Source of the DNA: Spirochaetales bacterium
GTDB taxonomy: Bacteria > Spirochaetota > Spirochaetia > SZUA-6 > RPPD01
Length of the DNA: 64,000 nucleotides
Assembly (NCBI GenBank): GCA_016929065.1
Contig: JAFGJO010000028.1
Span: 1-64,000 of the forward strand
Direction: 5' to 3'
The notes under the pieces were generated by a model. It was not told where the DNA came from. It saw only the letters and a list, made by a program, of their open reading frames with translations, and ran no database searches. Shown piece by piece: positions 95-24,668 of the stretch. How positions within the stretch are numbered: position 1 is the first letter of the stretch; every line of letters starts with the position of its first letter. The position numbers and the translations under genes were made by a program.

Positions 95-904
95 TCAGCG
101 AATAAGAAACTCCCCCTCTTTGGTTAATACAATCCTCTCCCTATAGACAGAATCTCCGTTTTCTTTTTCAAGGAATCCTTTACAGATTAATTTGTCATCA
201 ACAAAAGTACATTCTGTGATGCCCAGCTTTTTGCCCTCTATTTCAAAAATCCCTTTTATGGTCCCAGCAGGGTTTTCAACCAGTTCACCATCTGCATAAA
301 AATGCAGTGTTTCAAACATAATGGTATTATCACTACCAGGTATCACTAATGATGCGTCAAATAAAGAAAAGGTAGAGGAGTGATCAAAATTCACCCGCAC
401 TCCTGTTTGTATTAATTTTGCATTCACCTTAAAACCAAAAAGAATTATAGAAAAATCTTCAGGTAACGAATAATAAATATGTGCTCTCCCATTTTCATCA
501 AGGTATATTATTTTTTCAGGAATGGATAGTGTCGTTCCATCGGAACCTTTTACATTCAAATTGAGTTCTCCGGATAGCATTAAACCTTGACTGGAAAATT
601 GATAATTTTTTGCTTTAATAGAAATCCCATTCGTTGATAACATCTCAACTTCTTTGCTTCCCTCACCACAATCTACCAAATCATCCCGATCATCGATAAC
701 AATATAAGGAAACTCAAGTATTCCAAATCCCATGAGCGAATATAATTCCACTGTCGGTGATTTCAAAACGTAATTTCCATCTTTCATTTCTTTATCCGTA
801 TAATTCACGCGCCACCCATCAATCCTTATGGACCCTTTTTCAGCGAAAAGTGAACATGGTATTATGAAACAAACGAAAATAATAATAATTCTTTTCGTTA
901 TCAT
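95..904 (-). CDS. Secreted protein of unknown function
   Basis: Residues 1-21 form a Sec signal peptide: basic MITKR, a long Ile/Val/Phe core, and a likely cut after SLFA. The mature part has no membrane segment. It alternates short hydrophobic strands with Gly/Asp/Asn turns, as extracytoplasmic beta-rich proteins do. I recognise no family. The start is fixed by aaggag five bases before the ATG. A 7-bp inverted repeat at 34-64 (AGGCCGG/CCGGCCT) with a short T run on the minus strand may be its terminator. The gene stands alone: about 490 bases without a gene lie upstream of it. Confidence 0.75.
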   Translation of the reverse strand: MITKRIIIIFVCFIIPCSLFAEKGSIRIDGWRVNYTDKEMKDGNYVLKSPTVELYSLMGFGILEFPYIVIDDRDDLVDCGEGSKEVEMLSTNGISIKAKNYQFSSQGLMLSGELNLNVKGSDGTTLSIPEKIIYLDENGRAHIYYSLPEDFSIILFGFKVNAKLIQTGVRVNFDHSSTFSLFDASLVIPGSDNTIMFETLHFYADGELVENPAGTIKGIFEIEGKKLGITECTFVDDKLICKGFLEKENGDSVYRERIVLTKEGEFLIR

Positions 905-1199
905 GAATGCTCCTTATAAAATATTTTATGCTTACAAACAAAAATTATAAGACGTTGTATCTCCGGCGTCAATATCAGTTTTTTTATGATTTGAAGTATT
1001 TTGGGGTGTATCAATTATCCATTCAGGAGAGTTGTCACAGAACAGTGTTTGGGTAATATGGTTCTCTATACCTCTGAGGGAATTAACGGCTCTCTATGCA
1101 AAGCTCAAACATATAGAGCTATAGTGTTGTGATAGAAGCGGAGAACAGGTTCCCGGGATATTGATTGATAATTTCTTATCGTTTAAAAGATATGGTTAC

Positions 1200-1350
1200 C
1201 GCTGAATTCGCTGATTGACGCGAATGAAGAGGGAGAAGTATTTCTCGCAAAGAACGCAGAGGACACGGAGAGAAAAAGGATGTAACCGCGAATTACACGA
1301 ATGGGCTCGGATTAAAAAGAGAAGAAGAAAAAAATGGGTTAACCACCGAC
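1200..1350. repeat. Dispersed-repeat debris in a gene-free gap (905-1392)
   Basis: The 490 bases between the first two genes hold no convincing gene. They contain degenerate short phrases: gctgattgacgcgaatgaag, tctcgcaaagaacgcagagg, aaccgcgaattacacgaatg and gttaaccaccgac. The same kind of phrase recurs near 2234-2396, 3131-3190, 20249-20277 and 32020-32126. They resemble low-complexity intergenic repeats seen in many environmental bacterial genomes. I see no clean terminal inverted repeats or target-site duplication. Confidence 0.5.
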
Positions 1351-1392
1351 TGGTCATGGCTGCAACACGCTGTGCCGGGTGCGGGAAGATGT

Positions 1393-1887
1393 CTATGACA
1401 CATACTTATTTACAAATCGCCAGAGGTATTCTGTTCCGTACGCATCAAATTTGCCTTCCTCGAGGTCTTTTTTTATCAAGGGTGCACCTGAAACGCAGTC
1501 CAGACTTTTCATAAGGTCTGCAAGATCAAATCTGATGTTTGTTGATTTATAGGCTGCTATTAATGCCGGGAATGCCTTTTCTCCCAACACCTTTAAAGCA
1601 TTTTCAGCACCCAGTTTATCAATTGTGTGCCGGCTTAAGGCATACAATATGGACTGTATCGCATCTTCACCGCCCACCATTACAAGAGATTTTGCAGCAG
1701 TATTCGCAACAAAATCCTCTTCATCATTCATTGCCTTTTGCAGGAAATCAAAGGATTCTTTTTCTCCCAATTCGCCAAGAGCAGCTGCTGCTCTCAATCT
1801 TTGACTTGAATCTTTGCTTTTAAGCAGTAATTTGGCTAATGCTTTGATGTCTCTTTTCGCTTTGGCTTTTTCTATTTTTTTATCCAT
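1393..1887 (-). CDS. HEAT-repeat protein
   Basis: A small, fully helical cytoplasmic protein of 164 residues. Residues 1-20 are Lys/Ala rich. From about residue 28 there are at least three HEAT/PBS-lyase-like helix pairs: QRLRAAAALGELGEKES, then VANTAAKSLVMVGGEDA, then LGAENALKVLGEKAFPAL. The A-LG--G/A pattern at the helix turn is typical of HEAT_2 scaffolds. Such proteins mediate protein contacts, so no enzymatic role can be assigned. gagagg nine bases before the ATG supports the start. It stands alone on the minus strand between two repeat-rich gaps. Confidence 0.75.
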   Translation of the reverse strand: MDKKIEKAKAKRDIKALAKLLLKSKDSSQRLRAAAALGELGEKESFDFLQKAMNDEEDFVANTAAKSLVMVGGEDAIQSILYALSRHTIDKLGAENALKVLGEKAFPALIAAYKSTNIRFDLADLMKSLDCVSGAPLIKKDLEEGKFDAYGTEYLWRFVNKYVS

Positions 1888-2229
1888 ACATGCAAACCTC
1901 TCATCACCTTCTATAATAAAAACAAGTATATTAACTACTCAATTCTTGTACAAGACATTCTCATCACCGAATCAAGTATCTTTTTTTTTCTGCAAGCAAT
2001 CCGCGCTGCGATGAGCATAGAGTTTCACAAGAAGCGCTCTGTTTTCCATACCAGAATTGAGCCGCCTGGATATCTTTGATACAGTGAATTCAAAAGGTTT
2101 TTGACACGGGTCGCGCGCCATACAGAGCTTTGGTGCCAATTCATTTTTCAGAGGATTTCACACAATTAATAGTCTTTTTTCCAATTTATTTTGGACAGCA
2201 GTGATGATAAATGGTGAATTAGGAATAAG

Positions 2230-2400
2230 GAATTAACCGCGGAGGAAAGAAATATCAGACAGGAGCAACAGTATGAAGGAGAAGAAGAAGTAACCACAGA
2301 TTCCCGCCCGTTCATCCGGGCGTACGCGGATGGGCGCGGGGAAAGAAGAAATAAGAATTTCACACGAAGGACACGAAGAGCACAAAGAAAAGAAGAAAGG
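2230..2400. repeat. Dispersed repeats with nested hairpin (gap 1888-2412)
   Basis: The 525-base gap upstream of the HEAT gene holds no supported gene. Its end carries the repeat phrases ttaaccgcggaggaaag (2234), taaccacagattcccgc (2290) and acacgaaggacacgaagagc (2361). Between the second phrase and gtacgcggatgggcgcgg sits a hairpin, CGCCC-gttcatcc-GGGCG (near 2305), as if a palindrome had been inserted into the repeat unit. Confidence 0.5.
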
Positions 2401-2412
2401 AGCTCCGTCATT

Positions 2413-2958
2413 TTATTCCAGCATATTCCATAACCTCCTGATTTCAGGGATTGATTTTTTTAACAACCGCATCTGTTGTTTTGCGGTTTTATCAAAAGTA
2501 TCCTTGTCCATTTCCAGCTGTTTAATTAAATTCTCCTTTGTCAGCTTGAAGAAACCTACTGGTCCAAGAATATTTGTTAACCGGTCTTTATTTTGTTGAA
2601 GCATCTCCTTGTCCCATATAACCATGCCGAGATTAAATCCTTCTGCCCAGTTTTCCATCCCGTCCTCATCTCCGCCGGCATACGGTTTAAAATTTCCGGA
2701 TTGGATATCATTGTTGAGTTCATTATATAACCGGAGTAAAAGGCCGGTTTTTTCCTCTGCGTCCCGGTGTGTTTTGAATTCATATTGTTCATCGTTGTCT
2801 TTCAGATGAAGAATAACATCCATCCATAGTGAAGGAGGAATTACCTGCGGTGCACATACGACAGCACAAATAAAGCCATGCCAATACGGCAGTCTGAATT
2901 CAGGTTCATGAAACCGTCCCAGCCATTGCTCAAGTGTCTCCATTGCAATAATGTCCAT
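2413..2958 (-). CDS. UPF0149 (YecA/YgfB-like) family protein
   Basis: About 181 residues, helical and cytoplasmic. The N-terminal block PYWHGFICAVVCAPQVIPPS and the later WAEGFNLGM match the UPF0149 pattern, in which a 'xxGfl.al.caP..i.p..Wl' helix is followed by an 'Wa.GF..g' helix. The usual YecA C-terminal SEC-C zinc motif is absent: the protein ends RRLWNMLE. Three in-frame ATGs lie close together (2985, 2964, 2958). The last is best placed, six bases after aaagg. The biochemical role of the family is unknown. It lies 0.5 kb from its neighbours and I see no operon. Confidence 0.7.
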   Translation of the reverse strand: MDIIAMETLEQWLGRFHEPEFRLPYWHGFICAVVCAPQVIPPSLWMDVILHLKDNDEQYEFKTHRDAEEKTGLLLRLYNELNNDIQSGNFKPYAGGDEDGMENWAEGFNLGMVIWDKEMLQQNKDRLTNILGPVGFFKLTKENLIKQLEMDKDTFDKTAKQQMRLLKKSIPEIRRLWNMLE

Positions 2959-3140
2959 ATGCATCCTTTCCTGCTTCAGCTTCAAAAGAAAATTATTTCA
3001 GTTATTATTCATTTTTTTTGTTTTCCAAAACCATGCAAAACAAAATATACATTAATTTTTTCTTACATGCCAATAGCGGCCAGTGGAATCATTTTATATT
3101 TCGAATTGATACAGATGGGAAGAAGATTAATTAACCGCCC

Positions 3141-3168
3141 CCGAGCACTCAACGCTTTGAGTGCTCGG
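3141..3168. repeat. Palindrome copy 1 (CGAGCACTCAA arms) inside a dispersed repeat
   Basis: CCGAGCACTCAA and TTGAGTGCTCGG form an 11-12 bp perfect stem with a short loop. The same arms occur at 4333-4358 and 57789-57819. Here the hairpin interrupts a repeat phrase: ttaaccgcc lies on the left and gatgaacccagatgaacgcg on the right. No T run follows on either strand, so it is not an obvious terminator. The rest of the gap 2959-3474 holds no gene I can support. Confidence 0.8.
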
Positions 3169-3470
3169 TCGATGAACCCAGATGAACGCGGATTTATTGC
3201 TTGATACGGCACCGATGCTGACACTTTTTTCCGCAAATGACTGAAACGCGAGTTAATTCTACTCCAAGCCACCCCATAAATCAATCACTTGAGAGTTACT
3301 ACATCCGGACCATTCTCTCACTGGTGTTTTAGCGACAGTTCCTATTATAGCATTGTTGATTTTTATAATAATAAAGTACATGGCTGGAATGAACCGGAGT
3401 AAGTATCTGATATTATTGCTATTCAATAATATCAATTTCCCAGTATTCCTCCCCCGCCTCCATGAAAGCA

Positions 3471-3502
3471 AAAAAAAGAAGCAGCGGTCAAAGACCGCTG
3501 CT
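3471..3502 (-). terminator. Intrinsic terminator overlapping the stop of the GxxExxY gene
   Basis: AGCAGCGGTC-ttt-GACCGCTGCT (3480-3502) is a perfect 10-bp stem, followed on the minus strand by tcttttttttgc. The left arm encodes the last codons (Ser-Ser-Gly-Leu) of the gene at 3488-3871, and the TGA falls in the right arm. Confidence 0.85.
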
Positions 3503-3871
3503 ATTAACAAACCGCTGAAATTCCAATCGCACAGCGTTAAAGTTTAAAAGATAGCCAACAGGTATTTTGGACAGCTTAAGATAATTGATAAGCTGCGCCT
3601 GCATTAATTCATTCAACTTTTTAACCGATTTAATTTCAAGTATCACCTTATTGTCTAAAACCAAATCCGCGATGTAGGAACTGATGTAATCCCCTTTGTA
3701 AATGAGCGGGTAAACGTGCTGACGCGTAAAGGGTATACCTGCGTGCCGAAACTCCCAGCAGAGGGCTTCCTCATAAGCCGATTCGAGGAGCCCGGGACCG
3801 AGTGCTTTATGCACGGTGAAAGCCAGGTCGACGACCAAATCTGAGAATTCTTTTTGGATAATCGTGTTCAT
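3488..3871 (-). CDS. GxxExxY protein
   Basis: A 127-residue member of the GxxExxY family (TIGR04256 type), a compact PD-(D/E)XK-like fold of unknown function common in environmental bacteria. Visible motifs are GPGLLESAYEEAL near the N-terminus (the family's G-x-x-L-E-x-x-Y), the strand pair YIADLVLDNKVILEIKSV with the D...ExK residues expected of the nuclease-like core, then the helix AQLINYLKLSKIPVGYLLNF. aggaggtattac places the ATG at 3871, not at the ATG six codons upstream. It stands alone between a large hairpin upstream and its own terminator. Members are usually single genes that move readily between genomes. Confidence 0.88.
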   Translation of the reverse strand: MNTIIQKEFSDLVVDLAFTVHKALGPGLLESAYEEALCWEFRHAGIPFTRQHVYPLIYKGDYISSYIADLVLDNKVILEIKSVKKLNELMQAQLINYLKLSKIPVGYLLNFNAVRLEFQRFVNSSGL

Positions 3872-4211: not shown

Positions 4212-4332
4212 AAAACGTACCTTCCATGTCCAAAGAAGGGCGTAGCTGCCCCTTTTCCTTCGAGAACTTATCAGCATTACATGGCTTGGCAACCAGTTAC
4301 CATACCTGACACCAGATTCGCGTCGAGCACTT

Positions 4333-4358
4333 CGAGCACTCAACGCCTTGAGTGCTCG
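4333..4358. repeat. Palindrome copy 2 (CGAGCACTCAA arms)
   Basis: CGAGCACTCAA-CGCC-TTGAGTGCTCG is a perfect 11-bp stem with the same arms as copies at 3141-3168 and 57789-57819 but a different loop. It is preceded by a partial direct repeat, tcgagcactt. The 570-base gap 3872-4445 contains only these palindromes and no gene. Confidence 0.8.
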
Positions 4359-4445
4359 ATAAAACGGTATTCGTAGTTACCCCATCTTCTTGTCTTCTGC
4401 TCTCCTTCTTTTTATATCCGTGCAATCCGCAGTATCCCCATTCTT

Positions 4446-5117
4446 TCAGTAAAATAACCGGAACTTGATGTCGATTTCCAGGTCGCCTCCCGTTGACCCG
4501 GCCGGCAAGAACAGGAAGGAATGCGTGACGACCACCGAAAATATCGTTTCGGTCGGGCCTGAGTATCCGATCGAGGAGAATTCGAAGTATAACCCGGCGC
4601 CGATGCCGGCATGAGGGATGAGAACGGTATCCTGAAAGAGCACGCCGCCTTCCGCCTGCACCGAAAACCAGGAGACAACAGGAACATACACCCTGCCGGA
4701 AATCCCGTACAGTAACCCGGGATCCAAGTTCGTGAGGATAATCTCCGGCAGTATTTCAAGGCGGAGCGCGTTGAATCCCGCCAGATCATTGTAGACATCG
4801 CCGAAATTAAGCCGGGGGCTGAACAGATAGAAACCGAACGATTCAGTGTAATCGGCGTCAAGAAAAGTGACCCCGAAGGGGAGCTTCCAGCCGATCCCGT
4901 GCCGGACCTCCGTGCCGGTAAACAGCACGTGATAATCGGGGACCATCGGTGCCACAAATTCCAGTACCTGTACGGGGAGGACTACACCGCAGTATGCACC
5001 GATCAGACAGCACGCCTGGCCCTCGGAGAGTTCGAAAAAACCGTAGCCGCATGTGCAGACAGCAAGAATAAGGATTGCGCCGATCAGGGCGTTTTTTTTA
5101 AAGGCAGATATGGTCAC
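4446..5117 (-). CDS. Small outer-membrane beta-barrel protein
   Basis: 223 residues. It begins with a basic stretch and a hydrophobic helix (residues 10-27), which may act as an uncleaved or cleaved export signal. The remainder is a series of 8-12 residue amphipathic strands with aromatic girdles (GWKLPFGVTFL, ESFGFYLFSPRL, VSWFSVQAEGGVLF, TIFSVVVTHSFLF). It ends in the strand DIKFRLFY, and a terminal aromatic residue is the usual BAM recognition signal. It looks like an 8-10 strand barrel. I do not recognise a specific family. It diverges from the lipoprotein gene at 5278. Confidence 0.7.
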   Translation of the reverse strand: MTISAFKKNALIGAILILAVCTCGYGFFELSEGQACCLIGAYCGVVLPVQVLEFVAPMVPDYHVLFTGTEVRHGIGWKLPFGVTFLDADYTESFGFYLFSPRLNFGDVYNDLAGFNALRLEILPEIILTNLDPGLLYGISGRVYVPVVSWFSVQAEGGVLFQDTVLIPHAGIGAGLYFEFSSIGYSGPTETIFSVVVTHSFLFLPAGSTGGDLEIDIKFRLFY

Positions 5118-5277
5118 CGGTTTTCCCCCACGAGTTCCAATCTATATACATTGACGCGATATGACAATTATAACGGGTAAAAAAACAGCAATCAGCAGCA
5201 GATTCTTCTTGCTACAGATTTCTGAAAATGCTACCATTTGTACGGGTTCACGTTTATAAAAAAAAAGAGGAAACCAG

Positions 5278-5859
5278 ATGAATATTAATAAAGCTGCCTG
5301 TATCTTCATGTCACTCATCCTTCTATTCCTTGCAGTCTCATGCGATACTCCCGGTTCACCGGGATCACTGGCTTCAAGCACTACTGGTTCCAGCCAGGTG
5401 TGGATGGGATTTGATCCTGGAAGTATGACCGGTACCCTGGTATGTCAGGGCTTTACACTCGACAATACCGCCACCGTAACAGGAATACGGCTCTTCATCA
5501 CCACAAAAACGGGAACACCCACCGGCGACTACATTGTCAGCATTAAAACGGATAATGCCGGGAAACCGTCAGCAACGAACGCTGACGCAAATGCGACGCT
5601 TTCCAAAAACGCGGCTTCGATAACCCAGAACGCCTGGAACACCTGGACATTCCCCGCATCCTTTTCTCTTTCCGGAAGTACACAGTACTGGGTTGTGGTT
5701 ACAACAAATGAGAATGACATGACCGGCGCCAATGGTATTTATTTCGGATATGACAATGCGGGAAGCTATGCAGGCGGAGCAATGGGTACCTACGACAGCA
5801 TGGTGACATTCACCTGGACTATCAACACGGCAAACGATCTTAAATTCATCGTTCAATAG
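5278..5859 (+). CDS. Lipoprotein with a choice-of-anchor-R-like beta domain
   Basis: 193 residues. The signal peptide ends in LAVSC with Cys22 as the lipidation site, followed by a Gly/Ser/Pro/Thr linker. Residues 45-190 read as one beta-sandwich: GFTLDNTATVTGIRLFI, GDYIVSIKTDNAGKPS, then FSLSGSTQYWVVVTTN. This resembles the 'choice-of-anchor R' domain found on exported bacterial proteins, in which an extended beta unit ends in a 'l.aGttYw.vv' strand. The role is unknown and surface exposure is likely. aagaggaaaccag supplies the ribosome site. It is transcribed alone. Confidence 0.7.
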   Translation: MNINKAACIFMSLILLFLAVSCDTPGSPGSLASSTTGSSQVWMGFDPGSMTGTLVCQGFTLDNTATVTGIRLFITTKTGTPTGDYIVSIKTDNAGKPSATNADANATLSKNAASITQNAWNTWTFPASFSLSGSTQYWVVVTTNENDMTGANGIYFGYDNAGSYAGGAMGTYDSMVTFTWTINTANDLKFIVQ

Positions 5860-15288: not shown

Positions 15289-16368
15289 CTATTTGCTTAT
15301 AATCACCAGACTATTAATTTGGGAAGATTTTGCAGGATCAATTCTGCTGAGGCCATGCCATGCCCCGTTTCTCCAGTACCCGGGGACTTGAACATCTGAA
15401 GAATTCATACTGTACCCCGCAGCATAGACAATTGATCCTGATACCACCAAATCATTTACCACTGAAGATTTTGTCGCATCAAGCGGAGCAAGTCCTTGCC
15501 ATAGCCCGTTTTTCCAAAAACCAGCAACAACAACACCCGATGTATTCATACTATAACCTGATACATAGATATCTTCTTCCAATACCCGAACAGTCTTGGC
15601 ATATGAATTTTTTGTTGCATCAAGTAAGGAAAGACCGTTCCAGGCCCCGTTTAACCAATACCCGGGAACCAAAACATCTGATGAATTATAACCATATCCG
15701 GAACCATAGACATCTGTACCAGACACTACCAAACCGGTAATTGCAGCGTTTTTTGCCGGATCAAGCGGAGAAAGCCCGTTCCACACCCCGTTGAACCAAT
15801 ATCCGGGAACTTGAATATCAGAGGCATTCGTCGAGTACCCTGCAACGTATACATCAGTACCTGATACCACCAGGCTGGACACATAGGAGTGTTTGGCAGC
15901 ATCAAGCGGAGGAAGCCCGTTCCAAACTCCGTTTAACCAATATCCGGGAACTTGAATATCAGAGGCATTCGTGGAATATCCTGCAGCGTATACATCTGTA
16001 TCTGACACCACCAGACTGAAAACATAGGAATGTCTGGTAACATCAAGCGGGGGAAGCCCATTCCAAACTCCATTCAGCCAGTAGCCGGGCACAAAGACAT
16101 TTGAAGAATTAACACAAAACCCGGCGACATAGATATCAGTTCCCGATACAACCAGACTTCTGACGAAATTATTTTTTGTTTCATCAAGTGCAGGAAGCTC
16201 ATTCCAGACACCGTTCAGCCAATATCCGGGGATATAGACATCTGAGGCATTCGTGGAGTAACCTGCAGCATATACATCATTGGTTTCAGTAACGGGTACA
16301 GAGCAGCTTATAATTATACTCACCAGCATTGCACCAGGACAGATCTTGAACAGATTCCAAAACTTCAT
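15289..16368 (-). CDS. Lipoprotein built of seven exact 47-residue repeats
   Basis: 359 residues from the ATG at 16368 (aaaggagcaaga before it). Signal peptide with lipobox SIIISC, Cys22. Residues 31-359 are exactly seven units of 47 residues with no insertion or deletion. Each unit has the outline [DI]-[VI]-Y-x-x-G-[YF], then a Ser/Asn turn, then V-P-G-Y-W-x-N-G-x-W-x-x-L, then D-x-[TA]-K and a hydrophobic strand (VVSGT). Four short strands per unit and seven units fit a seven-bladed beta-propeller held on the outer or surface membrane. It is related in design, though not closely in sequence, to the lipoprotein at 11763-13124. Function unknown. The last unit ends the protein without the usual velcro strand. 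Confidence 0.82.
   Translation of the reverse strand: MKFWNLFKICPGAMLVSIIISCSVPVTETNDVYAAGYSTNASDVYIPGYWLNGVWNELPALDETKNNFVRSLVVSGTDIYVAGFCVNSSNVFVPGYWLNGVWNGLPPLDVTRHSYVFSLVVSDTDVYAAGYSTNASDIQVPGYWLNGVWNGLPPLDAAKHSYVSSLVVSGTDVYVAGYSTNASDIQVPGYWFNGVWNGLSPLDPAKNAAITGLVVSGTDVYGSGYGYNSSDVLVPGYWLNGAWNGLSLLDATKNSYAKTVRVLEEDIYVSGYSMNTSGVVVAGFWKNGLWQGLAPLDATKSSVVNDLVVSGSIVYAAGYSMNSSDVQVPGYWRNGAWHGLSRIDPAKSSQINSLVIISK
15292..16278 (-). repeat. Seven tandem 141-bp coding repeats
   Basis: The 987 bases encode seven in-register 47-codon units. Units 3 and 4 (about 15715-15996) are the most alike at DNA level, sharing phrases such as aatatccgggaacttgaata. The outer units have drifted. The tract is a good substrate for recombination that adds or removes whole blades. 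Confidence 0.85.
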
Positions 16369-16523
16369 TCTCTTGCTCCTTTTTTTTTCATCATCAAATA
16401 ATAATACCATAATTCTTTTTATTTCACAATATAAATAGATTAAATGCAACCGGTTACGATTCACTCAACAGTCCTCCTGTTCTCACTCCAGACAAACACG
16501 TATTACATAAAATAAAAATCAAT

Positions 16524-20759: not shown

Positions 20760-20850
20760 GTATATTATCCGCGCAACAGGCAATTATTAATAGATATTTG
20801 TTTTCAATCGGAAAATAAATTTCTTTTTCGATCTTTTTGTTCCACTGCCT

Positions 20851-20906
20851 CTCCTTTCCTGTTTTCATGGATTCCTTATAAATTCTTTTTCTCCTTTCCT
20901 GTTTTC
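20851..20906 (+). promoter_or_regulatory. Two 16-base direct repeats 40 bases apart upstream of the ECF-caspase operon
   Basis: CTCCTTTCCTGTTTTC occurs at 20851-20866 and again at 20891-20906, identical and spaced by exactly 40 bases (about four helical turns). It lies 50-100 bases before the -10 box at 20955, where an activator might bind. The gap 20760-20983 holds no gene. Confidence 0.5.
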
Positions 20907-20931
20907 CAGGTAATTTTCCTCATATGAGGTA

Positions 20932-20960
20932 ACAGTTTTCCGTACGATTTGTGTTATACT
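20932..20960 (+). promoter_or_regulatory. Promoter -10 element for the ECF-caspase operon
   Basis: TATACT at 20955-20960 is a strong -10 box, while the -35 region (20932-20937, acagtt) is poor, as in activated promoters. Transcription would begin near 20967. That rules out the upstream in-frame GTG at 20951 and supports the GTG at 20984. Confidence 0.5.
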
Positions 20961-20983
20961 ATACGAGAAAGGAAAGGGAAAAC

Positions 20984-21469
20984 GTGGCAGTAGATGTTGA
21001 AGCGCTGTACAGGAGGTACGGCCCCATGGTAATCCGCAGATGCAGACAGCTCCTCAATGATGAAGAGCAGGCGATTGACGCGGCACAGGATACATTCGTA
21101 AAGGTAATCCGCTATAAGGAAAAACTTGACGCGAAAGCACCGTCGAGTCTTTTATACCGGATTGCTACCAATGTGTGCCTCAATGTAATACGGTCACGGG
21201 GAAAAAAGGCGATTCCAACCGATCGTGAGTATCTGGAAACCATTGCGGTTTCACAGGGACATGAGGAACGAATTGTCGCAGGAGAGGTCCTGAAGGCGGT
21301 CTTTCGGGGGGAAAAAAAGTCGACACGCGAAATCGCGGTTTTTTACTACGTCGACAACATGACCCTCGAACAGGTTGCCGACACCGTGGGTCTCTCGGTA
21401 TCCGGTGTACGCAAGCGGCTTCGCAATCTTGCCGGCCGGGTACAAGAGCGTAAGGAGGCATTTCTATGA
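20984..21469 (+). CDS. ECF-family RNA polymerase sigma factor
   Basis: 161 residues from a GTG at 20984, preceded by aaaggaaaggg. Region 2 is clear: VEALYRRYGPMVIRRCRQLL, DAAQDTFVKVIRYKEKL, and SSLLYRIATNVCLNVIRSRG, which melts and reads the -10. Region 4 reads IAVFYYVDNMTLEQVADTVG then SGVRKRLRNLAGRV, the -35 helix-turn-helix. It overlaps the next gene by four bases (ATGA). It probably directs its own operon and perhaps surface genes, and is held by the membrane anti-sigma encoded next. Confidence 0.92.
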   Translation: MAVDVEALYRRYGPMVIRRCRQLLNDEEQAIDAAQDTFVKVIRYKEKLDAKAPSSLLYRIATNVCLNVIRSRGKKAIPTDREYLETIAVSQGHEERIVAGEVLKAVFRGEKKSTREIAVFYYVDNMTLEQVADTVGLSVSGVRKRLRNLAGRVQERKEAFL

Positions 21470-22374
21470 ACAAAACGACATCCCTTCCCGATTTAATCCT
21501 TGAACAGTATGTGCTGCACGAACTGGATGAGAGGGAAATGAAGGAAATCGGGCAGCTTGAAAAAGAGAATCCGGATGTAAAGAAACGGATTGATGCAATA
21601 CGGCAATCCAACGAAGAGATACTATCGATGTATCCGGTTTCCATAATGGCCGAATCAATTGAAACAAAAAAAGCAAAAGCCCGTTTTACAAACTGGAAAC
21701 CCGGTTCCCCGGCTACCATGTCTTTCATCGGCGTTGCAGGGCTTGCAGCTGCTGCTGCAGTGACAGTCTTTTTTACCCCGGTGCTTCGCCAGAATGAAAT
21801 TCCAACGGAAAGCATCTCTGCCACAGCAGCCAATCCTGACACGTCCGGAAATCAGGCAAACAATGGCAATCCGAATATTGTCCTGCCGTCGCAGGCTCCC
21901 GACACAACACGATTAAAGGGATCAGAATATATCAATACACCGCGGATTGCCCTGTTTAAAAAGATCATTGACGAAGAACAGGAAACCGCAAAACAGCTTC
22001 TCCCAAAAGAAGTGCTGCATCAGGGTGATGAGATACAGGTCCGGTATTATTCCGGAAAATATTCCCACGGGATCATCATTTCGATCGACGGGCGAGGTGC
22101 GGTCACCCTTCACTCTCCGTCCCCGCGCACAGAGAGCACAGAACTTGTGAAATACAAAGACACATTTATCAAAAACTCGTTCAAACTCGATGACGCGCCC
22201 TATTTTGAACGGTTCTTTTTTATTCTCGGCAATACGCCGATACAGTCAATTGACGGGATTCTCCTCTCTGCGGAGAAACTCGGATCGGATCCCGTGAATG
22301 CAGAAAAAGCAGATTTAGAACTTCCAAAAGAATTCACCGTCACCTCGATTATTGTCTACAAGGAGGAACGATAA
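21466..22374 (+). CDS. Membrane anti-sigma-like protein with DUF4384-like outer domain
   Basis: 302 residues. The N-terminal 60 residues are helical and charged (LPDLILEQYVLHELDEREMK), like the zinc-free anti-sigma domains that clasp ECF factors. One membrane helix lies at about 85-104. After a Ser/Asn/Pro linker, residues 155-300 form an envelope domain with the DUF4384 outline: LHQGDEIQVRYYSGKYSHGI, IISIDGRGAVTLHSPS, ELVKYKDTFIKNSFKLDDAP, FERFFFILGNTPI. DUF4384 is often found beside or fused to caspase-like domains. Translation is coupled at both ends: ATGA overlap with the sigma gene, and TAATG overlap with the caspase gene. Confidence 0.78.
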   Translation: MNKTTSLPDLILEQYVLHELDEREMKEIGQLEKENPDVKKRIDAIRQSNEEILSMYPVSIMAESIETKKAKARFTNWKPGSPATMSFIGVAGLAAAAAVTVFFTPVLRQNEIPTESISATAANPDTSGNQANNGNPNIVLPSQAPDTTRLKGSEYINTPRIALFKKIIDEEQETAKQLLPKEVLHQGDEIQVRYYSGKYSHGIIISIDGRGAVTLHSPSPRTESTELVKYKDTFIKNSFKLDDAPYFERFFFILGNTPIQSIDGILLSAEKLGSDPVNAEKADLELPKEFTVTSIIVYKEER

Positions 22375-24566
22375 TGGTTACCTTTTCACAATCAGTATAT
22401 AAAATATTTCGTATTGCCGGTTTCATCCTGATTCTGTTTTTTCTGAGTGCCGTGGCCGCATTTTCCAGTGATCCGGCAGGGGTAGGACGATATGCGCTTA
22501 TTATCGGGAAAAACAACGGCGGCAATGAACGGGTCATGCTCAAGTATGCTGCCACTGATGCAGCCGCATTCTCCCAGGTATTGCAGGAAATGGGGGGGCT
22601 GCAGCAGGCCCGCCAGGTTTTATTGCTTGATCCCTCTGTCCGGGAAATTGAAGAGGGATTCGATGCCATTTCAAAACGGATCGAACTCGAAAAAGAATCA
22701 TTGCGGCGGAGCGAGTTTATTGTTTATTATTCGGGGCATTCCGATGAAAATGGGCTTTTAATCAGCAACAACTCTCTTTCCTATAAAAAACTGAGAGATT
22801 ATATCACCAATGTTCCCGCTGATGTGCGCATCGCGATCATCGATTCATGCGCATCGGGCGTGTTTATCCGCACAAAAGGCGGAACACAGCAGCCGCCATT
22901 TCTGGTGGATTCATCCACAGAAATGAAAGGCTATGCCTTTCTCACCTCCAGTTCGGAAAACGAATCCGCCCAGGAATCCGACCGGCTGGCCGCATCGTTT
23001 TTTACGCACTATCTTGTTTCCGGTTTGCGCGGCGGCGCTGATGCGACCCAGGACAGCGTGGTCACCTTAAATGAGGCGTATCATTACGCGTTCAAGGAAA
23101 CGCTTGCCAAAACAGAAAAAACCCGATATGGAGCGCAGCATCCGTCATACGACATTCAGCTGACCGGCACCGGCGACCTCATTCTCACCGATCTGCGTGA
23201 AACCACCTCCGGCGTGGTTTTCCATGAAGCTTTAAACGGAATCATCTATATCCGCAACCACCGAGGTGATTTGATTGTTGAACTCAACAAATCCCCGGGC
23301 ACCCCGATGGAAATCGGTTTGACGCCGGGCACCTATAAAATTCTTATCGAAACCGAAAACAAACTTCTCGAAGCATCAGTCCAGCTGTCAAAGGGAAGCC
23401 GGACCCGTGTGTCACTTACCGACATGGCCCGGGCGCATCCCGAAGGAACGACCGCCCGCGGCAGCAGTGATGAGTTGATTCTGGAACCCGGTTCCGAAGA
23501 GTTGTTGTTCACTCCGTTTTCTGTTTCCCTGTTCCCCATGGGAGGACACACAAATACGGAAACCGCGATTTCGCTGAACCTCACTGTTGGATTGCAATAC
23601 AGGGTTCGGGGCTTTATGTTCTCGATGACGGGATCTATCATCAATGAAAATCTGTCCGGAGGCAATTTCGCCGGCGTTTTTTCCATCATGAATGGAAACC
23701 TGAAAGGGGGAACATTCAGCGGCGTATTCAATATGGTCAGCGGCGATACTTCATTCTTCTCCGGTGCCGGCGTGTTTAATATCGGCGGCGGAAAAGTAGC
23801 CGGCGTCCAGTTCGGCGGTGTCTTCAATATTGCGGGAGCGGATGTACTTGGAGCCCAGCTTTCCGGTGTTTGGAACATTTGCGGGAAAGACCTGCGGGGC
23901 GGACAGGCAGCAGGCGTGGTCAATATGGCGGGAGATGTGGAAGGCGTTCAGGTAGCGGGTGTGTTCAACATGGCAGAAGATGTCAAGGGAGCCCAGGTTG
24001 GACTGGTGAATACAGGAGGAAGAATTGACGGTGTCCAGGTGGGCCTGATTAATATTTCCGATGAAAACCATGGAGCTTCGATTGGCCTTGTTACGATCAG
24101 CAAAAACGGCATCCATAATTTTGAACTCTGGGCGGACACCGATTCCATGAGCTATGCTGCTTTCAAATCCGGCACCGAATATTTTTATTCGATCTTTCTG
24201 GCAGGCTACGACCTGTTTGGAGATTCAGGACGATGGGCATATGGTATCGGGCTTGGTGCGCATATTCCGCTTGATCCGGTATTTATCGACACGGATATTC
24301 TGATCACCTCTGTTCATACTGTAAACGAAAGTCCGGGTGCGATTCCCTACCAGAAAACACTCCTGCCGAAATTCCGGTCAAAAGTGGGGGCATCCTTTTT
24401 CAATACCATCGGCGTGTTCGCTGGTGTAGAATTGCAGTTTCATTACACCGATATGTACTATGGTGAAAATGCAGCTGCAAATGCCCTGTTTGAGTTCCCT
24501 GTACAGGCAGGCAATACCTGCAGTGTTGTTCCGGGATTTGTATTCGGCGTCCAGCTGCTGAATTAA
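22374..24566 (+). CDS. Secreted caspase-like (C14) protein with LA_2272-type repeats
   Basis: 730 residues. The signal sequence or anchor spans 8-30. A peptidase C14 domain covers 38-270: RYALIIGKNNGG, the catalytic His122 in VYYSGHSDENG, the catalytic Cys159 in AIIDSCASGVF, and a C-terminal HPSYDIQLTGTGDLILTDL. A short beta domain (280-350) follows. Residues 425-575 hold about nine 18-20 residue units of the form G-[VG]-F-N-[IM]-x-G-x-x-x-G-x-Q, the pattern of LA_2272-type surface repeats. The C-terminal 150 residues look like beta-strands and end in FVFGVQLLN. Both catalytic residues are present, so it is probably active outside the cytoplasm. It is the third gene of the ECF unit. Confidence 0.85.
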   Translation: MVTFSQSVYKIFRIAGFILILFFLSAVAAFSSDPAGVGRYALIIGKNNGGNERVMLKYAATDAAAFSQVLQEMGGLQQARQVLLLDPSVREIEEGFDAISKRIELEKESLRRSEFIVYYSGHSDENGLLISNNSLSYKKLRDYITNVPADVRIAIIDSCASGVFIRTKGGTQQPPFLVDSSTEMKGYAFLTSSSENESAQESDRLAASFFTHYLVSGLRGGADATQDSVVTLNEAYHYAFKETLAKTEKTRYGAQHPSYDIQLTGTGDLILTDLRETTSGVVFHEALNGIIYIRNHRGDLIVELNKSPGTPMEIGLTPGTYKILIETENKLLEASVQLSKGSRTRVSLTDMARAHPEGTTARGSSDELILEPGSEELLFTPFSVSLFPMGGHTNTETAISLNLTVGLQYRVRGFMFSMTGSIINENLSGGNFAGVFSIMNGNLKGGTFSGVFNMVSGDTSFFSGAGVFNIGGGKVAGVQFGGVFNIAGADVLGAQLSGVWNICGKDLRGGQAAGVVNMAGDVEGVQVAGVFNMAEDVKGAQVGLVNTGGRIDGVQVGLINISDENHGASIGLVTISKNGIHNFELWADTDSMSYAAFKSGTEYFYSIFLAGYDLFGDSGRWAYGIGLGAHIPLDPVFIDTDILITSVHTVNESPGAIPYQKTLLPKFRSKVGASFFNTIGVFAGVELQFHYTDMYYGENAAANALFEFPVQAGNTCSVVPGFVFGVQLLN

Positions 24567-24627
24567 TCCGGATATTTTATGGAATTGGATATAAATTTTA
24601 ATTGAGAGTCAGACTGACTTTTTAATA

Positions 24628-24668
24628 GAGGGAGTTTGTGCCGGCCTTGCCTTGCTCCCTCCTTTTCT
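24628..24668 (+). terminator. Probable terminator of the ECF-caspase operon
   Basis: GAGGGAG and CTCCCTC pair across a 20-base loop and are followed by cttttctg. It sits between the caspase gene and the opposing lipoprotein gene. Confidence 0.6.

Follow-up and report, generated by a model that had tools for sequence, protein, structure and literature searches.

Organization and conservation of the operon

The 64,000-nucleotide stretch of DNA analysed here (hereafter the window; contig JAFGJO010000028.1) belongs to a Spirochaetales bacterium with a genome of 3.5 Mb in 69 contigs, the closest named relatives of which are Spirochaetales bacterium metagenome genomes. On its forward strand lie three genes specifying, in order, an extracytoplasmic function (ECF) sigma factor (161 residues; positions 20984 to 21469), a single-span anti-sigma factor (302 residues; 21466 to 22374), and a C14 caspase fused to a putative outer-membrane barrel (730 residues; 22374 to 24566). 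The anti-sigma factor was delineated by the ATGA overlap with the sigma factor gene, an alignment of 134 family members, and an AlphaFold 2 (AF2) model, and the caspase fusion by profile searches, AF2, Foldseek, and VIA. The three open reading frames (ORFs) are real. They are joined by overlaps of ATGA (sigma and anti-sigma factors) and TAATG (anti-sigma factor and caspase), confirming the unit described in the initial annotation. The GTG codon at 20984 is the best start of the sigma factor gene since the listed start at 20951 falls within the -10 element of the promoter described below; orthologues (L033 and L034) were also used in assigning this start.

The sigma factor matched TIGR02937 (E 4.7e-19, residues 6 to 155) and Sigma70_r2 (E 5.3e-14), region 4 remaining slightly under the cut-off. 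These matches uphold its identification as an ECF factor, and its content of regions 2 and 4 only assigns it, by sequence, to group IV.

The initial annotation had called for a survey of the adjacency of the three genes in other genomes. We examined 393 genomes of Spirochaetota together with two genomes of the window's own family. In addition, a scan of 84,980 species returned 465 relatives, the best 80 of which included members of Spirochaetota, Myxococcota, Acidobacteriota, Fibrobacterota, Latescibacterota, and candidate phyla. Genes for the anti-sigma factor and the ECF factor were located directly upstream, on the same strand, at all 58 Spirochaetota loci strongly matching the caspase domain. 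In the combined set of 133 non-redundant caspases, the anti-sigma factor gene was directly upstream in 124 cases, usually in an overlapping or touching frame (modal gap of -4 to 0). The trio is therefore contiguous at 58/58 loci in the phylum and at 124/133 overall, and a chance grouping of the three genes was rejected on this basis. The nine exceptions comprised a contig edge (one case), an anti-sigma factor present in an over-long ORF (one), a divergent trio (one), a second caspase beside a complete trio (three), and caspases devoid of partners in the DNA examined (three; L156, L162, and L163). Conversely, strong matches to an anti-sigma profile in the 393 genomes adjoined a caspase wherever the contig permitted. 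Two apparent orphan anti-sigma factors in genome G165 were rejected as such, as they turned out to belong to additional complete trios; this genome harbors four (L207 and L208). In Myxococcota, a homologue was detected at E <= 1e-30 in 151 of the 193 sampled genomes, paralogues being counted. A decayed trio with truncated anti-sigma factor and caspase was present in one genome (L211, positions 4299 to 5591), indicating that the system can be lost.

A fourth constant gene was sought among the recurrent neighbours. None was conserved in all loci, and the neighbours were lineage-specific only. Directly 3' of the trio in several Treponema (L041, L043, L044, L045, and L074), genes for a TonB receptor and ExbB/ExbD/TonB-like proteins were found (Plug domain in the L041 receptor, E 9e-11), suggesting an energised uptake partner.

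Architecture of the caspase and of the anti-sigma factor

The caspase begins with a Sec signal (residues 1 to 31; 22374 to 22466), visible in the sequence and in the AF2 model as a hydrophobic helix (residues 3 to 30). The catalytic domain follows (residues 36 to 276; 22479 to 23201) and matched PF00656 (E 6.5e-11; 42.8 bits for a cut-off of 21.4), bearing out its assignment to C14. As initially noted, the catalytic His122 (22737 to 22739) and Cys159 (22848 to 22850) are retained; they were invariant in 139/139 homologues, as were D157 and S120, and the conservation of D62 rounds to 1.00. A single-sequence search for solved relatives of the caspase found none, and a profile search for them retrieved metacaspases. 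The AF2 model of the domain resembles metacaspases and MALT1, as judged from its superposition by VIA on AtMC4 (6w8r; Z 20.9, 209 aligned residues, 2.8 Å) and on MALT1 (Z 20.3). Alignment identified A59/D62, S120, and D157, encoded within 22479 to 23201, as residues of the S1 pocket. D62, S120, and D157 align with metacaspases and with Asp95/Asp211 of TbMC2, in which the corresponding residues accommodate a basic P1 residue (PMC6426788). The caspase thus fits C14B (metacaspases, orthocaspases, and paracaspases), with an acidic S1 pocket for Arg or Lys at P1, and cleavage after basic residues is predicted. The nearest NCBIfam model was the EACC1-associated caspase NF047832 (caspase_w_EACC1; E 2e-20), at 73.1 bits, below its cut-off of 140.

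Downstream from the catalytic domain, the AF2 model continues with a beta domain (residues 279 to 346; 23208 to 23411), followed by a disordered linker, an extended run of repeats, and, at residues 580 to 728, eight long strands. The repeats are of the LA_2272/VC2662 type (residues ca. 378 to 576; 23505 to 24101): NF047436 matched the window caspase (E 4.9e-10; 39.1 bits for an NCBIfam cut-off of 25) and 43 of 44 relatives, and NF047437 matched 39 of the 44. About nine repeats had been reported in the initial annotation; a long beta-repeat stretch is indeed modelled (ca. 378 to 570), but the curated model yields two or three significant units. The beta-rich C-terminus reported there is likewise present, and is more specifically a putative outer-membrane-type barrel of eight strands ending in a beta-signal-like sequence (residues 580 to 728; 24111 to 24557), according to the AF2 strands and to Foldseek matches to OmpA, NspA, and PagL (probability of 1.0, but E ca. 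0.01). A terminal Phe was found in 59 of 134 caspase homologues. The modelled architecture indicates that the caspase is most likely an outer-membrane-anchored protease, the fusion of its catalytic domain to LA_2272 repeats and an OmpA-like barrel most likely placing this domain in the periplasm. With an even number of strands in the barrel, the repeats would also be periplasmic. Their earlier designation as surface repeats is doubtful; they are more likely part of the barrel, or beside it, with the N-terminal side facing the periplasm.

The anti-sigma factor consists of a cytoplasmic helical domain (residues 1 to 75), a single transmembrane span (ca. 86 to 108), a linker, and an ectodomain (155 to 301). 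Its place in the operon, its helical domain, and its single span are those of an anti-sigma factor, and binding and inhibition of the sigma factor are predicted; the NCBIfam antisigma profile matched below threshold (E 0.007). The ectodomain had been described as DUF4384-like. The window protein itself scored below the gathering threshold of DUF4384 (PF14326; E 0.17, 12.5 bits for a threshold of 27), but 21 of 52 family members matched at E <= 0.01 (best 5e-6). It is therefore fair to call the ectodomain DUF4384-like, on the basis of its relatives' sequences, without filing it as a member. A fold search returned nothing beyond Ig-like matches of middling strength (Z up to 8.9), and no family was assigned. 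Many ectodomain residues are invariant in the family alignment.

A shared motif, a promoter, and a regulon

The linker of the anti-sigma factor is hypervariable apart from the motif R149-L-K151-G152 (21910 to 21921), located just before the ectodomain (R in 125/132, K in 132/132, and G in 128/132 sequences). The predicted local distance difference test score (pLDDT) is below 50 just upstream of the motif, and the fold begins at ca. 155. In the caspase, the motif R166-T-K168-G169 (22869 to 22880; R in 131/139, K and G in 139/139 homologues) opens a disordered loop following the catalytic Cys (pLDDT below 50 for residues 167 to 179). Thus, T-R-x-K-G is common to the anti-sigma linker and to the post-Cys loop, in both cases in a stretch predicted to be disordered. 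The two families were compared profile to profile in all windows of five residues (133,340 pairs), with 40 column permutations as the control. The T-R-x-K-G pair ranked first with 14.7 bits, as compared with 11.5 for the next distinct pair and 12.4 for the best permutation (0/40 reaching the observed score). R-x-K-G was absent from 13 unlinked C14 proteins of Spirochaetota. In Latescibacterota, the second family caspase located next to a full trio (L159, L160, and L161) retains R-x-K-G-G.

Relatives of caspases are commonly autoprocessed in the loop that follows the catalytic Cys. The simplest reading of the two motifs is that one cleavage code is used twice, the loop motif being the predicted autoprocessing site of the caspase and the linker motif its predicted cleavage site in the anti-sigma factor.

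A bipartite ECF-type promoter, GTAACA-N16-GTGTTATA, precedes the sigma factor gene (20929 to 20958, forward strand) and is the sole exact match in the window. Just 5' of this promoter, the 17-base sequence TCTCCTTTCCTGTTTTC is directly repeated, with copies at 20850 to 20866 and 20890 to 20906, 40 bases apart; it is possibly a regulator site or due to chance. The consensus GTRACA-N16-GTGTYnnA occurs before the trio operon in many phyla, and GTRAC-N17-GTGT was found upstream of the ECF gene in 63 of 117 operons, versus 0.14 in shuffled sequence. By sequence, the ECF factor is autoregulated from this promoter.

The longer pattern was also searched genome-wide. In 15 other trio-bearing genomes, it occurred at 70 sites versus 18 for the reversed control, and 15 genomes of the same class that lack the trio showed no excess (14 sites versus 29 for the reversed control). 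The window's own genome contained five sites. Besides the trio operon itself, these sites preceded an ExbB-ExbD-ExbD-TonB receptor-TonB operon (L308, C28:25392-33000), a small lipoprotein-like gene, and a gene for an outer-membrane-type protein; in the two other family genomes, relatives of this last protein have the same promoter. The fifth site, in a ribosomal protein gene, was taken as chance, as were other matches within coding sequence (EF-Tu, ribosomal S9). Targets in other genomes encoded ExbB (five genomes), TonB receptors (three), DUF4097-type proteins, and many small outer-membrane-type proteins. The two sites of Archangium, versus four in the control, are anecdotal; they precede genes for a stand-alone LA_2272-like barrel protein and a GIN-like lipoprotein. 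Stand-alone LA_2272-like barrel proteins devoid of a caspase were preceded by the promoter at L328 and L305, and are possible competitors or partners of the caspase barrel. Together, the shared promoter and regulon confirm, at the level of sequence, a real ECF circuit.

Proposed signalling circuit and alternatives

We propose, with a probability of about 0.65, that the trio is an autoregulated envelope signalling operon in which the caspase, anchored in the outer membrane, acts as site-1 protease on its anti-sigma factor and controls an envelope and TonB regulon. The anti-sigma factor would retain the sigma factor at the inner membrane and expose its DUF4384-like ectodomain to the periplasm. 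The exported caspase would be embedded in the outer membrane by its OmpA-like barrel with LA_2272 repeats, its metacaspase-like domain being suspended in the periplasm near this ectodomain. Following detection of an outer-membrane or TonB-linked signal by the barrel and repeat part, the caspase would activate itself by cutting its post-Cys loop at R-x-K|G, and would then cut the linker tethering the anti-sigma ectodomain to the membrane at the matching R-x-K|G. Processing of the stub by an RseP-type protease would release the sigma factor; an RseP-type M50 protease and BamA are both encoded in the genome. Free sigma factor would transcribe, from GTRACA-N16-GTGTYnnA promoters, its own operon and genes for outer-membrane proteins, ExbB/ExbD/TonB, and TonB-dependent receptors, and the circuit would amplify itself through the first of these targets. 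The linkage, architecture, motif, promoter, and regulon were computed; we infer the cleavage, including where and in which order the cuts occur, as well as processing by RseP, the export topology, and the signal. Cleavage of the anti-sigma factor by the caspase receives strong, though indirect, support from the near-obligate linkage of the two genes, the pocket for a basic P1 residue, and the identical T-R-x-K-G in linker and post-Cys loop. The broader proposition, a widespread outer-to-inner-membrane signalling system in which a single R-x-K|G code serves both caspase self-activation and sigma factor release and governs TonB/ExbBD and outer-membrane-protein genes, has roughly even odds.

Several observations weigh against this proposal. 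The caspase of L162 and those of L156 and L163, which lie on contigs that are short upstream, have no partner genes yet retain R-x-K-G-G, and the loop motif therefore also serves caspases without a linked anti-sigma factor. Deviations from the motif in the anti-sigma factor and in the caspase displayed no visible co-variation, and the conservation of K151-G152 could have another cause, for instance in the way the ectodomain edge docks or folds. The exact promoter pattern was absent in Breznakiella (L133) despite the presence of the trio. Finally, the Foldseek E-values of the barrel are weak, the VIA list is taken up by the caspase domain, and the structure model covers the 730-residue window caspase, short family versions (ca. 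550 residues) falling outside it.

The first alternative is that the caspase is an output of the system, namely an envelope protease acting on other proteins of the outer membrane or periplasm, the anti-sigma factor being freed by a different signal and protease. The 3'-terminal position of the caspase gene in an autoregulated operon, the existence of orphan and extra caspases (L159 to L162), and the abundance of outer-membrane proteins in the regulon would fit this role. We nonetheless consider it unlikely in view of the near-obligate one-to-one adjacency with the anti-sigma factor across phyla and of the R-x-K-G motif that the caspase has specifically in common with the linker of the anti-sigma factor. 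Less probable still is the converse relationship, in which the anti-sigma factor restrains the caspase, its R-x-K-G strand filling the active site in the manner of an inhibitor or pseudo-substrate and holding the protease inactive as long as the sigma system has not been triggered. Mimicry of the caspase's own loop and the many invariant ectodomain residues, as in a binding surface, are compatible with such restraint, but a location in a linker that is flexible and elsewhere variable is what would be expected for a cut site, and an invariant Lys-Gly facing a basic-P1 protease typically marks a substrate. An anti-phage or suicide module with a secreted caspase is very improbable: caspases are common defence effectors and PADLOC gave a weak match (E 1.7e-4) to a generic caspase profile, but the operon is conserved over phyla, the protein is predicted to be exported, the regulon is of the envelope/TonB type, and no linked nuclease, sensor, or CRISPR gene was recognised among the recurrent neighbours. 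The surface defence or sensing system entertained in the initial annotation is thus unsupported, the regulon consisting of outer-membrane proteins, ExbBD, TonB, and TonB receptors.

The proposed cleavage circuit recalls the DegS-RseA-SigmaE pathway of E. coli, which also involves a membrane anti-sigma factor, a periplasmic site-1 protease (proposed here), an RseP-type protease (found in the genome), an autoregulated ECF factor, and an outer-membrane-protein regulon. Whereas DegS is an inner-membrane HtrA/PDZ serine protease, the site-1 protease proposed for the trio is of the caspase type, would be attached to the outer membrane, and is specified by the operon itself. With FecI-FecR-FecA, the trio shares the association in one operon of an ECF factor, a single-span anti-sigma factor, and an outer-membrane beta-barrel protein (a putative one in the trio), as well as a regulon comprising TonB/ExbBD and TonB receptors. 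However, its putative linked barrel is OmpA-like, with LA_2272 repeats and a protease, rather than a TonB receptor; such receptors are further targets, or lie downstream in some Treponema, and the trio does not qualify as a FecIRA-type system. Orthocaspases and metacaspases (C14B) have the same p20 fold, His-Cys dyad, and acidic S1 pocket for basic P1 residues, but the trio caspase is predicted to be exported, fused to a putative outer-membrane barrel, and linked in an operon to sigma and anti-sigma factors.

Three intracellular or caspase-associated systems are also related. In Craspase (Csx29-Csx30-CASP-sigma, type III-E CRISPR), a protease of the caspase family cuts the inhibitor that acts on an ECF sigma factor (PMC10028731); it differs from the trio in relying on a cytoplasmic RNA-triggered TPR-CHAT protease, with no signal peptide, barrel, or membrane anti-sigma factor. 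CalpL-CalpT-CalpS (type III CRISPR) is an intracellular set of protease, anti-sigma factor, and ECF sigma factor (PMC11417357), but the protease is of the Lon type, switched by cyclic tetra-adenylate inside the cell. In EACC1/EACC2 systems, caspase genes occur near ECF sigma genes, EACC2 caspases with ECF genes having been noted (PMC8195603); these systems differ by their EACC domains, STAND NTPases or TPR partners, and effector tails, and a membrane anti-sigma factor and a barrel are undescribed there. The trio is undescribed in the accessible full-text literature; the main ECF re-classification lies outside that reach and may already list the gene linkage. Nor does the accessible literature describe, for bacterial caspases, a role in cutting an anti-sigma factor and activating outer-membrane genes, the cut itself being what the sequences suggest.

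For most bacterial caspase homologues, the usual guess is a role in cell death or defence. The trio provides one large conserved group of caspases with a specific predicted substrate, cut site, promoter, and regulon, which can be tested together in cultured bacteria (Corallococcus, Archangium, and Breznakiella). If correct, the proposed circuit would add a new class of protease and a new geometry, the outer membrane reaching the inner one, to proteolytic control of sigma factors; it would link this control to TonB-dependent uptake in spirochaetes and assign a defined physiological function to a large class of caspases in bacteria.

Two further features were noted. The same genome harbors a second, unlinked C14 caspase of 985 residues (L213, positions 884 to 3841; contig C29). 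On the reverse strand of the window, positions 15289 to 16464 encode an exported protein built of several tandem AGYSTNASDIQVPGYWLNGVWNGLPPLD-type repeats.

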